Assembly (NCBI GenBank): GCA_017656255.1
Contig: JACDOE010000001.1
Coordinates: forward strand, 623,205-687,204
DNA length: 64,000 bases
Direction of reading: 5' to 3'
Source of the DNA: Bacillaceae bacterium
Lineage (GTDB): Bacteria; Bacillota; Bacilli; JACDOE01
The notes beneath the pieces are model-generated. The model did not search any database. It saw only the letters and a list, made by a program, of their open reading frames with translations, and was not told where the DNA came from. Below, one piece after another: positions 13,200 through 61,177 of the stretch. The position numbers and the translations under genes were made by a program. Numbering within the stretch: position 1 is the first letter of the stretch; each line of letters starts with the position of its first letter.

Positions 13200-15839
13200 C
13201 TATTTCAGTAATTTTTTAAGTTCATACAGTTTGTTCATTGCGTCAAGCGGCGTCATATTCAACAGGTCTATTTTTTCCAGTTCCTCAACAATGCGTTGTT
13301 CTTCACGTAAGGTATCCTGCTGTTGTCGAGATTTGGATGGCGTCTCGCCGAATATATCCAATTGAACCGGTTCCGCAGGCGTTTCTTTCACCTCGGAGGT
13401 CGCGGCCGCTTCCGGTAATATCTGATGTTGCCCTTCAAAATATTGCAGAAGTTCCTCGGCGCGCCGCACGATTTTTTCCGGTACCCCTGCGATTTTCGCT
13501 ACATAGATCCCATAACTTTTACTGGCGGCTCCTTCTTTTAACCGTCTGAGAAAAATGACTTCGTCCTCTTTCTCGGTGACGGCCATGCTGACATTTTTCA
13601 ACCGGGGAAGTTGTTGTTCCAGTCCCGCCAGTTCGTGATAATGGGTGGAAACCAGGGCGACACACCCGATATGGTCATGAATATATTCAATGACAGACTG
13701 GGCGATGGCCATTCCATCCGCTGTCGAGGTTCCCCTGCCCAGTTCATCGATGATCACCAGGCTGTTCCGGGTTGCCTGCCGCGTCGTAATCTTGATGTCA
13801 TTCATCTCCACCATAAAAGTACTCTGTCCGCCGGTCAGGTCATCCGCTGCCCCGATCCGGGTGAAGATCCGATCAACGATGGACAGAATCGCTTCTGAAG
13901 CCGGGACAAAACATCCCATCTGTGCCATAATCACCATCAGCGCCACCTGACGCATATAGGTACTTTTACCGGCCATATTGGGTCCGGTAATCAATAAAAT
14001 CTGTTCTTCGTCGCGATGCAGACGGACATCATTGGGAACAAATGATTCATCTCTGAGAACGGCTTCCACGACAGGATGGCGTCCTTCGACAATCTGATAT
14101 GTACCGGAAGATGCATCCCTCATCTGCGGACGTACAAATCCGTTTTCCTGGCTGACCGTCGCCAGAGATTGCAGAACATCCAGCTCGGCAATCTGCTTCG
14201 CCAGCTGCTGAATACGCTCTATCTGTTCCGCAATCTGATCCCTTAATTCCACAAAAAGCTGATATTCCAGTTCTACGGATTTTTCTTCCGCCTCCAGAAT
14301 CAGCGATTCCTTTTCTTTCAGTTCCGGTGTCACAAAACGTTCCGCATTGGCCAGCGTCTGTTTACGAATATACCTGCCCTCCGGAAGAGCGGACAGGTTG
14401 GCTTTCGTCACTTCAATGTAGTAACCGAACACCTTGTTATAACCGACCTTCAATGATTTGATTCCGGTGGCCTGTTTCTCCCGCTGTTCCAGTTCAGCGA
14501 TCCACTTTTTACCTTCCCGTCCCGCTTCCAATAATTGATCCAGATGGTCATGGTACCCGGGGCGAATGATCCCCCCTTCTTTGACAGAAAGAGGCGGATC
14601 ATCCACCAGTGCCCGTCCGATTCGCTCAACGATATCCTGACAATCATCCATTTTTTCGACCATCTTCCGGATGCGATCACTGGATCCGGAAGAACCCAGA
14701 ATTTGTTTGATCTCAGGAACAATGGACAGAGATTTCTTGATCTGGATCAGATCACGGGCATTGGCATTTCCATAAGCGATCCGTCCGGAAAGCCGTTCCA
14801 GGTCATAAACCTGTTTCAATCTGTCCTGAAGTTCTTCGCGAACCATCCACTGTTCGACGAAAAATTGAACGGCTTCCAGTCTCTCCTCAATCGCTTCCCG
14901 ATGAATCAAGGGCTTGTCTATCCACTTTTTCAGCATCCTTCCTCCCATGGCTGTCGAGGTTTTATCCAGCAACCACAGGAGGGATCCTTTCTTACTTTTG
15001 TCACGGACTGTTTCTACCAGTTCCAGGTTACGCCGGGTAAAGGCATCCAGAATCATATATTGCCGCGATTCATAGACATCCAACTGCCTGATGTGGTCGA
15101 GTGTCCGTTTCTGGGTACTTTCCAGATAAACAAGCAGCAGTCCGATCGCCTGCTTATGTATAGCAGTCAAATCCTGTCTGGTTTCAAAATGTGTAACCGC
15201 CCGCTCTTCGAGAGCCGTACGTTCTCTCTCACCCATCTCATCCATCACGGTAATGACGGGTGAAAACTGATGTTTTATCCGATCCTCCACCGCGTCGATA
15301 TCCTGTTTTTGCAAAACAACCACTTCTGAAGGTTGATAATAACTTAATTCATTCAACAGGGGTATATCGCCGTTTTCGAGGAGGGTGGCATAAAATTCAC
15401 CGGTTGTCACGTCACAGGCGGCCAACCCGTATGTCTCCCCCACCCTGGACACAGCGAGGATAAAATTGTTCTCTTTTTCTTCCAGGTATTGACCTTCCAT
15501 GACGGTTCCGGGCGTAATGACCCGGACCACTTCACGTTTAACCACCCCTTTTGCCTGTTTGGGGTCCTCCACCTGTTCGCAGATCGCCACCTTATACCCT
15601 TTATCGATCAATTGTTTGATATAGGACTCGGCCGAATGATGGGGAACCCCGCACATCGGAATCCTTTCGTCGGTTCCCCCATCACGTCCGGTCAGCGTGA
15701 TCTCAAGTTCTCTGGCAGCCCTGACGGCATCTTCAAAAAAGAGTTCATAGAAATCTCCAAGCCGAAAAAATAAAAAGGCATCCGGATAATCAGCCTTAAT
15801 CGACAAATACTGTTCGATCATAGGTGTATATTTTGCCAC
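13200..15839 (-). CDS. mutS: DNA mismatch repair protein MutS
   Basis: An 879-residue mismatch sensor. The N-terminal mismatch-binding Phe-x-Glu lies in FFRLGDFYELFFED. The connector, lever and clamp domains follow, then an ABC-type ATPase with Walker A GPNMAGKST (about residue 615), DELGRGTST and STHYHEL. The C-terminus carries a predicted beta-clamp/tetramer tail (PVQLDIFG). The start is GTG, with CAGGTGAG 5-6 bases upstream. It is the first gene of mutSL, directly after the amidoligase-like gene with which it may be cotranscribed. Confidence 0.97.
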   Translation of the reverse strand: MAKYTPMIEQYLSIKADYPDAFLFFRLGDFYELFFEDAVRAARELEITLTGRDGGTDERIPMCGVPHHSAESYIKQLIDKGYKVAICEQVEDPKQAKGVVKREVVRVITPGTVMEGQYLEEKENNFILAVSRVGETYGLAACDVTTGEFYATLLENGDIPLLNELSYYQPSEVVVLQKQDIDAVEDRIKHQFSPVITVMDEMGERERTALEERAVTHFETRQDLTAIHKQAIGLLLVYLESTQKRTLDHIRQLDVYESRQYMILDAFTRRNLELVETVRDKSKKGSLLWLLDKTSTAMGGRMLKKWIDKPLIHREAIEERLEAVQFFVEQWMVREELQDRLKQVYDLERLSGRIAYGNANARDLIQIKKSLSIVPEIKQILGSSGSSDRIRKMVEKMDDCQDIVERIGRALVDDPPLSVKEGGIIRPGYHDHLDQLLEAGREGKKWIAELEQREKQATGIKSLKVGYNKVFGYYIEVTKANLSALPEGRYIRKQTLANAERFVTPELKEKESLILEAEEKSVELEYQLFVELRDQIAEQIERIQQLAKQIAELDVLQSLATVSQENGFVRPQMRDASSGTYQIVEGRHPVVEAVLRDESFVPNDVRLHRDEEQILLITGPNMAGKSTYMRQVALMVIMAQMGCFVPASEAILSIVDRIFTRIGAADDLTGGQSTFMVEMNDIKITTRQATRNSLVIIDELGRGTSTADGMAIAQSVIEYIHDHIGCVALVSTHYHELAGLEQQLPRLKNVSMAVTEKEDEVIFLRRLKEGAASKSYGIYVAKIAGVPEKIVRRAEELLQYFEGQHQILPEAAATSEVKETPAEPVQLDIFGETPSKSRQQQDTLREEQRIVEELEKIDLLNMTPLDAMNKLYELKKLLK

Positions 15840-15915: not shown

Positions 15916-17370
15916 TCACAGGCGGCTGGTGAGACGATGATAGGGCGGAAGCTTCCACACCACCCGTATATCCTGATATTCGTCCCATTCCTCCCCGGAA
16001 AGGACATGTTCGCAAAAAGGATCCAGATAGGAAGCAAAACGCGGATAATTTTTCAAATTTTTGACCTGATATAAAAGCTTTGCCACCACCGGTTTCAACG
16101 TTTCTTTATCCCCCTGGTAAAATGCTTCCTGAATATCCGCATGCAAAAGTGGAAAATCGAACAATGACATATATTCCACCGACAATAATTTGGCCATGGC
16201 AATCACCCCTTTGGTCAGCCGGGGAGACATCAACCAGCTCGGAAGGGTCCGATATTCAAACCCTCCGTGAAATTGTTGACGTATATCACCCAGGAATCCG
16301 TATTTTGGCCGTCTTTGGATGGATTCCCGGCTCTCCACCAGAACCAGGGGCAGGGCGAGATAATTGTCCAGACATCGCAGAAACCGGTTGTGAAGCCATA
16401 CCTGGCTGAAATGAATGTGTCCCCCGATCGGGTAGCCTTTCATCGGCATCCCGCCGGCCAACCATTCAATATCCGGTTCATTTATTTTTTTAATTCCCTG
16501 TAACATGGCTTTGTAAATATTAATGACAAGTTGCCGTGGGCTTTGATCCGGACGGGGACGCAATTCAGCAAGCGGCAACTGGTTACGGGTACGGTCTTCC
16601 CGTAACCAGATGGCATCACAACCGACTCGCCCTGTTTTGTTAAAAAAAGTAGAAGCGAGGATAATTTCACCATTCTGGGCGCGTCGTAGCACAAACTCCG
16701 GGTCCGCGCCCAGAATGGCCTGTTCCCGTTTCTGTTCCGACCGATGGTCACTGTATAACGTCACATATTGATTAAACTTTTGTGCCATGTTTCTGGCAAT
16801 GGTTTCATTTAAACGGGGCGCAGGCGTGACATGCAGGATTTTTATTTTCCCGGAAGGGGTGATCCCTGCCAGAACACCACCGAAATCAAGCCCGAGGACA
16901 TAGATGCTTCGTGTCGCATACTTCATTACCCGTTTCAGTTCTCGTTGATTGGACCGTGTACTGATTTCGACATAACGGTCACTGGTAGGAATCGCACCGG
17001 GATGAATCCAGGCCATTTTGGCATTTGAGCGATATAACCCTATAATCTCATGTTCAAACACTAAAACAAAGTACCGTCTGACCATCATCTCTTTCTTTTT
17101 GATCAGAGAGGGAATGCCATTTATGGATAAAATATTTTTCATGATCTCCTGATCAGAACAGTTATGAATCCCTTCTGCACCATTAAGCAGATAAGCCGAT
17201 GTCTCACCCTGATAAATAGTTGGCGTTCCCCATTGAAAAACGGGGGACGGTAAATGATCGGTTATGCGATTGTGAACATTTAATTCTTGCCACGTTCCAT
17301 GACTCATACCTGCGTAAGGAAGCAGAGGTTTTACTTGATCCGGATCGCCATACAAAATGAACCCCGTCAT
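15916..17370 (-). CDS. Putative amidoligase (phiEco32-like COOH-NH2 ligase type 2)
   Basis: A 484-residue protein. Residues 213-400 show the signature set of the phiEco32-type amidoligases in the glutamine-synthetase-like COOH-NH2 ligase superfamily: GADPEF (221-226), ELRP (269-272), GGHIHFS (316-322) and EYRTLPS (372-378). These would form an amide or peptide-like bond using ATP. The N-terminal 200 residues are distinct, with a GLDFGGVLAG stretch that could be an ATP-grasp relic or a targeting domain. The substrate is unknown. It lies between cotE and mutS, so a role in spore coat or envelope peptide modification is inference only. Confidence 0.75.
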   Translation of the reverse strand: MTGFILYGDPDQVKPLLPYAGMSHGTWQELNVHNRITDHLPSPVFQWGTPTIYQGETSAYLLNGAEGIHNCSDQEIMKNILSINGIPSLIKKKEMMVRRYFVLVFEHEIIGLYRSNAKMAWIHPGAIPTSDRYVEISTRSNQRELKRVMKYATRSIYVLGLDFGGVLAGITPSGKIKILHVTPAPRLNETIARNMAQKFNQYVTLYSDHRSEQKREQAILGADPEFVLRRAQNGEIILASTFFNKTGRVGCDAIWLREDRTRNQLPLAELRPRPDQSPRQLVINIYKAMLQGIKKINEPDIEWLAGGMPMKGYPIGGHIHFSQVWLHNRFLRCLDNYLALPLVLVESRESIQRRPKYGFLGDIRQQFHGGFEYRTLPSWLMSPRLTKGVIAMAKLLSVEYMSLFDFPLLHADIQEAFYQGDKETLKPVVAKLLYQVKNLKNYPRFASYLDPFCEHVLSGEEWDEYQDIRVVWKLPPYHRLTSRL

Positions 17371-17464: not shown

Positions 17465-18034
17465 TTAATCGAGATCATCGATCATGACTTCGGGGTCCAG
17501 ATCATCAAAATCATCCATTTCATCAAATTCATCGTCAAAATGAACATCTTTGTCTTCCAGGTCATCGCAGTTATCCGTGACCAGGACGCACATTTTTGTC
17601 TCCCCAACTACTTCGACTGCAAATTCTCTCTCAACGCGCACCATAATGGAATCCAGGCTTCCTCCCACTTTGGCTTCAATGCAGTTGGGCTGCTGTGTTT
17701 CGTGAGCCATCACTTCTACTGACCCTCTTACATGACCGTCATAGTAAGACAGGGGAACCTGTTCAACGTAAGAAACCGTTTCTTTACTGACTTCCGTTTT
17801 GGTGTTGTTGTCATAGGAGTACCAGATGTTGACGTCGTAACTTCCTACAACTTCTACGGATTCCCCTGTCTTTTCTGCGCTGTAGGTATGGTTTATGATC
17901 CATGCCCCTAAAATGGTCGACGGTGTGTTAGAGGGGGTGATTGTATGTGTAGCCTGGGAAAACTTGCGACCTCTTCCGATGACAGCTTTGGTTATAATCT
18001 CTCTACTTTGCATGTCTTTCAGAGTACCCGACAT
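17465..18034 (-). CDS. cotE: Outer spore coat morphogenetic protein CotE
   Basis: A 189-residue protein that assembles the outer coat around the forespore in the mother cell. The N-terminus (REIITKAVIGRG, then THTI and AWIINH) is the conserved CotE core. The tail (from about residue 150) is very acidic with repeated Asp/Glu, as in other CotE proteins. The ATG follows GAGGAGG by 7 bases; an upstream extension with Cys-rich sequence is rejected. In B. subtilis cotE is transcribed by sigma-E and sigma-K RNA polymerases, and a weak match lies upstream. Confidence 0.93.
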   Translation of the reverse strand: MSGTLKDMQSREIITKAVIGRGRKFSQATHTITPSNTPSTILGAWIINHTYSAEKTGESVEVVGSYDVNIWYSYDNNTKTEVSKETVSYVEQVPLSYYDGHVRGSVEVMAHETQQPNCIEAKVGGSLDSIMVRVEREFAVEVVGETKMCVLVTDNCDDLEDKDVHFDDEFDEMDDFDDLDPEVMIDDLD

Positions 18035-60199: not shown

Positions 60200-61177
60200 T
60201 CACTCAACAACATCCATCCTTTCAGGAGATAAGACGTCACTTACCGTACCTGGTATCAGCCCTTTTTTTTCAGCTGCTTCGATCAGAGATGGGAGGGCCC
60301 GGGTACTGGATGATGTCGGATGCATCAGAATCAGTGAACCATGATCCAGCTTCGGTGAAAGGCGATTCAGAATTTGCTGCGGGTCCGGTTTTTTCCAGTC
60401 TATTGTATCCAGGGTCCACAGGATGGTTTTCATGCCGAGACGGTCAGCAATCACCACAACCCTTTGATTGTAATCGCCTGACGGAGGAGCAAACAGAGTC
60501 GGTTTCACTTCCAGTACCTCTTCAATCACCTTATTCGTCTGTACGATTTCCCCGGTTATTTTTTCAGATGATAGACGGCTCATATCAGGATGGGAATAGG
60601 CATGATTGCCAATTTCATGGCCGGCTTCCGCGATCTGACGTCCCAGTTCCGGATTTTTCTTGAGCCACTTGCCTTCCAGAAAAAAGGTGGTCTTGACCTG
60701 GTAGCGATCCAGAATTTCCAGGATTTCCGGAATATATTCATTTCCCCACGCCACATTAATCATAAATGAGACCATCGGTTTGTGGGGATTTCCTCTATAC
60801 ACGGGAGAAGGTTCCAGATCCTCCAGTTGAACAGAGGGAGAAATCTGCCGATATACCAGGTCCTCTTCGGAAACATCACGTTTTCCCCTGAGGTTTCTCA
60901 GCGTCGCTTCGATATCCACCTCTTTGCCGTTATACCCGGGAATCGCTTTCCAGACCGGATCGATTCGCGCATTATCCGGCGGAACAAACTGTTTTTCAGC
61001 CATTTCTTTCACTTTCTGTTCCAGCGCTTGATTCTGTCGAGACCTGGTTTCAATGACATCTTCGTTATTTTTTATAGTAGCCATGTATTGATTAACGGGT
61101 TCGGAATTGATTACAGCCACTGAGGCGAGGATAAAAGCAGCCAGCACCAAAAACGGGATCACAGGTTTTTGATTCAT
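60200..61177 (-). CDS. ylxY: YlxY-type polysaccharide deacetylase homologue
   Basis: A 325-residue protein with an N-terminal signal anchor (residues 6-24), a coiled/acidic region, then a NodB-like domain from about residue 133. The zinc pair H192/H196 is kept (GNHAYSHPDMS), but the segment that normally reads TFDDG is INVAWGNEY (140-148), so the catalytic Asp pair is missing. It is probably exported, facing the wall. The ATG follows GGAGG. Confidence 0.92.
   Translation of the reverse strand: MNQKPVIPFLVLAAFILASVAVINSEPVNQYMATIKNNEDVIETRSRQNQALEQKVKEMAEKQFVPPDNARIDPVWKAIPGYNGKEVDIEATLRNLRGKRDVSEEDLVYRQISPSVQLEDLEPSPVYRGNPHKPMVSFMINVAWGNEYIPEILEILDRYQVKTTFFLEGKWLKKNPELGRQIAEAGHEIGNHAYSHPDMSRLSSEKITGEIVQTNKVIEEVLEVKPTLFAPPSGDYNQRVVVIADRLGMKTILWTLDTIDWKKPDPQQILNRLSPKLDHGSLILMHPTSSSTRALPSLIEAAEKKGLIPGTVSDVLSPERMDVVE

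Follow-up and report, generated by a model that had tools for sequence, protein, structure and literature searches.

Two ligase families frame the gene described here. The COOH-NH2 ligases of Pfam family PF14395 (phage phiEco32-like COOH.NH2 ligase type 2) were reportedly predicted by Iyer et al. in 2009 to be linked with CotE and YheC/D in firmicutes, and the text of the Pfam entry reportedly states the same predicted link. In the open-access literature we found no paper on a sporulation role of PF14395 and no experimental study. PafA and Dop, as well as RimK and LysX, act on proteins, and all four have folds that recur in the protein examined below.

The YheC/YheD proteins (PF14398) are clustered or fused with the amidoligase in other genomes. 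The B. subtilis genes yheC and yheD are members of the sigma-E regulon and are activated by SpoIIID (PMC517825), and in that species YheD is coat-localised, forming a self-interacting shell on the spore with a function that is unknown (PMC7911427). YheC/YheD have a different catalytic fold from the amidoligase, and their PF14398 domain is complete; the ATP-grasp domain of the amidoligase is truncated.

Domain composition of the amidoligase

The amidoligase gene lies in a 64-kb stretch of DNA (the window), with AAAGGAAG as the ribosome-binding site of its open reading frame. The gene, its domains and its motifs are as follows.

15916-17370, minus strand: amidoligase coding sequence, 484 aa, ATG start, PF14395 profile match
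16756-17370, minus strand: residues 1-205, truncated RimK-type ATP-grasp domain (fold match; catalytic metal ligands lost)
15949-16731, minus strand: residues 214-474, COOH-NH2 ligase domain (PF14395 and GCS/YbdK/PafA-Dop fold)
16693-16710, minus strand: motif GADPEF, residues 221-226, with D223 and E225 invariant
16555-16566, minus strand: motif ELRP, residues 269-272, with E269 and R271 invariant
16405-16425, minus strand: motif GGHIHFS, residues 316-322, with H318 and H320 invariant
16237-16257, minus strand: motif EYRTLPS, residues 372-378, with E372 and R374 invariant

A first-pass annotation made from the sequence had recognized a full set of phiEco32-type motifs in the C-terminal half, and profile and fold searches agree with it. 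PF14395 matches residues 220-474 over its whole length (profile positions 1-254 of 254) at an E-value of 1.1e-93 and 313.6 bits, against a curated cut-off of 25. All four motifs are held in common with the family, and nothing excludes membership. D223, E225, E269, R271, H318, H320, E372, and R374 are identical in an alignment of 51 of 51 homologues, so the putative ATP- and metal-binding positions show no sign of loss. This pattern of acid-x-acid, E, H, and E-x-R resembles that of the residues with which gamma-glutamylcysteine synthetase binds metal and ATP.

Searches of PDB sequences with the whole protein and with a C-terminal profile gave only chance hits, so a fold search was needed. A full-length structure model built on the 51 homologues (pLDDT 92.6, pTM 0.93) places residues 214-473 with YbdK (Z 16.2), Dop (16.0), PafA (15.7), and plant glutamate-cysteine ligase (15.3), that is, with a common fold at Z 15-16. 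The amidoligase differs from these relatives in its N-terminal RimK-like extension and in lacking a sequence match to GCS2. The latter (PF04107) is absent among its Pfam matches at E-values up to 1, where PF14395 is listed. A profile search of the gene's own genome gave no GCS2 match either, none of the GCS2 relatives in 61 related genomes was usable for a residue-level active-site alignment, and an NCBIfam search of the amidoligase returned no match. The amidoligase is a well-defined member of the predicted system, and family and fold together predict that its C-terminal domain catalyzes ATP-dependent amide-bond formation.

The N-terminal domain of about 200 residues, which had been left unnamed, is a genuine domain that is predicted with high confidence even when modelled by itself (pLDDT 89.5), and it can now be assigned a RimK-type ATP-grasp fold. 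Residues 1-205 match RimK, LysX, and ArgX at Z 16-17, whether taken from the full-length model or from a model of this domain by itself. The best RimK fold match has a Z of 17.5 and an rmsd of 2.8 with 196 residues aligned, and the matches cover 194-197 of the approximately 292 RimK residues overall. A profile search aligns it with RimK in two short co-linear segments at an E-value of 0.13, which is weak alone but co-linear with the fold match. These segments are spaced by about 60 residues here versus about 115 in RimK, and the ATP-binding region is incomplete, with the domain at about 205 residues versus 290 in RimK, or about 90-100 shorter.

D248, E260, and N262 of RimK form a metal-binding Asp/Glu/Asn triad. 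Their counterparts here, in a sequence alignment that is weak (E 0.13), are L167, H180, and T182. All three alignment columns are highly variable across the family, and Asp is not one of the residues most often seen where RimK has D248. Since the domain is shortened and its metal-ligand positions are replaced and variable, it is probably non-catalytic, by sequence an inactive ATP-grasp that would likely serve in docking.

Gene order and YheC/D partners

The amidoligase is flanked in the window by two conserved neighbours, and a terminator-like element lies on its upstream side.

13200-15839, minus strand: mutS, conserved downstream neighbour, for which we infer no functional link to the amidoligase
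17465-18034, minus strand: cotE, encoding the outer spore coat morphogenetic protein (PF10628, E 3.2e-74), conserved upstream neighbour
17459-17442, minus strand: terminator-like hairpin with T-run, 3' of cotE, from a pattern search of the stretch

The gene directly precedes mutS, as had been noted, with a gap of 76 bp. It had also been described as set apart from cotE by a terminator. The hairpin and T-run are there. The pattern occurs once in the stretch searched versus 2.0 expected from shuffles, which is not above chance, but its position immediately behind the cotE stop is that of a terminator. Elsewhere in the window, a polysaccharide-deacetylase-like protein is encoded beside pnp (60200-61177, minus strand) and by eye resembles the sporulation-associated YlxY of Bacillus.

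Comparison with other genomes shifts the emphasis: rather than an oddity lodged between cotE and mutS, the gene is part of a widely conserved order, and cotE commonly lies directly before mutS where the amidoligase is absent. In 80 named relatives, the best 80 of 458 by similarity and hence a set biased to near ones (Ammoniphilus, Aneurinibacillus, Thermoactinomycetaceae, Brevibacillus, Paenibacillus, and others), the upstream gene is cotE in 80/80 and the downstream gene mutS in 79/80, the remaining locus ending at a contig edge. Other lineages keep cotE and YheC/D at the locus but have no mutS there. A lineage-diverse set of 60 homologues contained 5 fused to a YheC/D ATP-grasp and 55 unfused. 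A same-strand YheC/D gene lies within 300 bp of 36 of these 55, and cotE within 6 kb of 42. The typical cluster is cotE-YheC/D-YheC/D-amidoligase-YheC/D, found also in lineages outside the class Bacilli, and Pfam confirmed PF14398 in all 8 of the YheC/D genes tested. In the deeper lineages, some of them outside Bacilli, the amidoligase is thus embedded in a cotE-(YheC/D)n-amidoligase cluster.

The window's own genome has eight PF14398 genes, four of them in tandem on another contig (locus L133, 8045-13807) and followed by a GNAT acetyltransferase. These tandem ligases are likely the partners of the window's amidoligase.

Some Brevibacillus- and Aneurinibacillus-like genomes contain a second copy of 872-905 aa that is fused to a YheC/D ATP-grasp, at the following loci.

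L129, 7011-11105: region with the fused second copy
L130, 6548-14949: region with the fused second copy
L131, 4601-13015: region with the fused second copy
L132, 6647-9265: region with the fused second copy

A Mur-ligase-like gene follows the fused copy in L129, L130, and L131. In L131 it is succeeded by genes for a PEP mutase, a TPP enzyme, a cytidylyltransferase-aminotransferase, and a NUDIX protein, a set partly shared with L130 that looks like an aminoethylphosphonate pathway. Outside the class Bacilli, CotE-like proteins adjoin the ligase cluster at L146, L147, L148, L173, L178, L180, and L188; a 2012 survey reported no CotE in clostridia (PMC3533761).

Distribution among spore formers and a sigma-K-type promoter motif

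We used the spore-coat ATPase SpoIVA as a marker of spore formers. A profile search found PF14395 in 160 of 299 Bacilli genomes, and SpoIVA is present in every one of these carriers, a result opposite to the co-occurrence only with non-spore-formers that would have spoken against a role in the spore. None of the 90 SpoIVA-negative Bacilli genomes has the amidoligase (Fisher p 8e-41, a value that ignores phylogeny and overstates independence). Presence is all-or-none at the family level, and the 49 SpoIVA-positive Bacilli genomes without the gene fall in whole families. In a phylum sample of 199 genomes all 26 carriers are SpoIVA-positive, although with only 26 SpoIVA-negatives this sample alone is weak. 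B. subtilis lacks a PF14395 amidoligase, as do many other spore formers, so the gene is dispensable for sporulation as such.

Upstream of the amidoligase start lies a motif of the kind expected for late mother-cell expression.

17427-17400, minus strand: sigma-K-type promoter motif CACA-15-CATACAATG, its -10 element beginning 38 bp upstream of the amidoligase ATG

This motif also matches the sigma-70 consensus at 10/12. Against a background of the 64-kb window and shuffles, the form [AC]ACN-15/16-CATAnnnT[AG] occurs upstream of the amidoligase in 19 of the 80 relatives (best 80 of 458) versus 0.17 in shuffles, and in the same comparison it was found 0 times before mutS, mutL, ylbF/ymcA, and miaB. 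It is clearest in the Thermoactinomycetaceae (TAACC-16-CATAACATA), and at most Paenibacillus loci the search did not find it. It precedes cotE in 15 of 44 lineage-diverse loci, many of them clustered, and stands at -65 before the YheC/D tandem of the window's own genome. The window has four matches, and only the one at 17427-17400 is intergenic; the other three are inside coding sequences and were taken as chance. A sigma-E promoter was also considered, but a perfect -10 match, CATACANT, occurs in only 2/95, which is not significant, while the sigma-K form is. The presence of the motif leads us to predict that the amidoligase is expressed as part of the sigma-K regulon. As this sporulation-type motif lies just downstream of the terminator, the terminator is no argument against a spore role. 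The link to the spore envelope, at first only hinted at by the neighbouring cotE, is strongly supported by the SpoIVA co-occurrence, the cotE linkage, and the promoter motif.

Possible roles and substrates

We consider it reasonably probable that the amidoligase is a sporulation-specific amide ligase of the late mother cell that works with YheC/D on a component of the spore coat. Its own sigma-K-type promoter would drive expression in the mother cell at a late stage of spore formation. In the C-terminal GCS/PafA-like domain a carboxylate would be activated with the help of ATP and metal ions and then coupled to an amine, and the N-terminal RimK-type ATP-grasp, with its ATP region partly lost and its metal ligands gone, would most likely be a docking site for the substrate or for a partner. 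The amidoligase and the YheC/D ATP-grasp ligases, clustered or fused elsewhere, would constitute one pathway, probably adding amino acids or peptides to, or cross-linking, a coat component that is laid down with CotE.

The matches to the protein-acting PafA/Dop and RimK/LysX favour a modified coat protein. A narrower form of this proposal, for which we have only a tentative and rather low expectation, is a coat protein-tagging system, analogous to pupylation or RimK glutamylation, in which the amidoligase and YheC/D would add residues to or cross-link the CotE tail or another coat protein. The acidic CotE tail is one plausible acceptor. As a substrate signature, however, its acidity is unsupported, since it does not track the gene: CotE tails are 47% acidic with the amidoligase gene versus 45% without it, and no terminal motif common to CotE across lineages was found. 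Because the tails are equally acidic in both cases, the idea of CotE as the target gains nothing from them.

The amidoligase and YheC/D could instead make a small peptide or polyamide that is stored in or on the spore, with no modification of coat proteins. Such a product is allowed by the matches to glutamate-cysteine ligase and YbdK, which act on small molecules, and by the Mur-ligase genes beside the fused paralogues; the apparent aminoethylphosphonate set at two loci and the resemblance of clusters of 2-5 ligases to peptide-building pathways point the same way. The closest matches of the N-terminal domain, RimK and LysX/ArgX, have protein carriers as their substrates, however, and YheD is localised to the coat in B. 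subtilis (PMC7911427). We rate a small product as the less likely outcome. It is improbable that the amidoligase is mainly a structural protein of the coat shell, of enzyme descent but without catalysis: YheD, which forms a self-interacting shell in B. subtilis (PMC7911427), could be such a protein and the N-terminal ATP-grasp domain of the amidoligase is degenerate, but the invariance of the C-terminal motif residues over 51 diverged homologues is unexpected for a dead enzyme.

Very little speaks for a phage-derived or mutS-linked accessory gene that lies near cotE by chance and has no spore role, although the Pfam family takes its name from phage phiEco32 and the nearer relatives always have mutS next to the gene. 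There is a distant PHROG match (E 4.8e-6), but none of 50,697 phage records was matched by tblastn, and of plasmid records only one, from Paenibacillus, and a recent phage origin was rejected. The strict co-occurrence with SpoIVA, the loci of other lineages from which mutS has gone while cotE and YheC/D stay, and the sporulation-type promoter motif upstream of the gene likewise make this explanation highly unlikely.

Beyond the predicted link itself, the present analysis identifies the N-terminal domain and its degeneracy, describes the promoter motif, puts numbers on the co-occurrence with SpoIVA, and distinguishes two forms of gene cluster. The YheC/D family has as its steady genomic partner a ligase of another kind, in which the motif residues are conserved and whose gene is preceded by a sporulation-type promoter motif. 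Because B. subtilis lacks this ligase, surveys based on the gene set of that organism (such as PMC3533761) can easily overlook it. If the amidoligase does act with YheC/D on the coat, enzymatic amide modification would be common to many spore formers and would have been overlooked, with B. subtilis having only the YheC/D half of the system. The genomic partnership turns an orphan into a pathway open to testing, a proposed amide-bond chemistry that would accompany assembly of the coat in genera such as Paenibacillus, Brevibacillus, and Thermoactinomyces as well as in deeper lineages.
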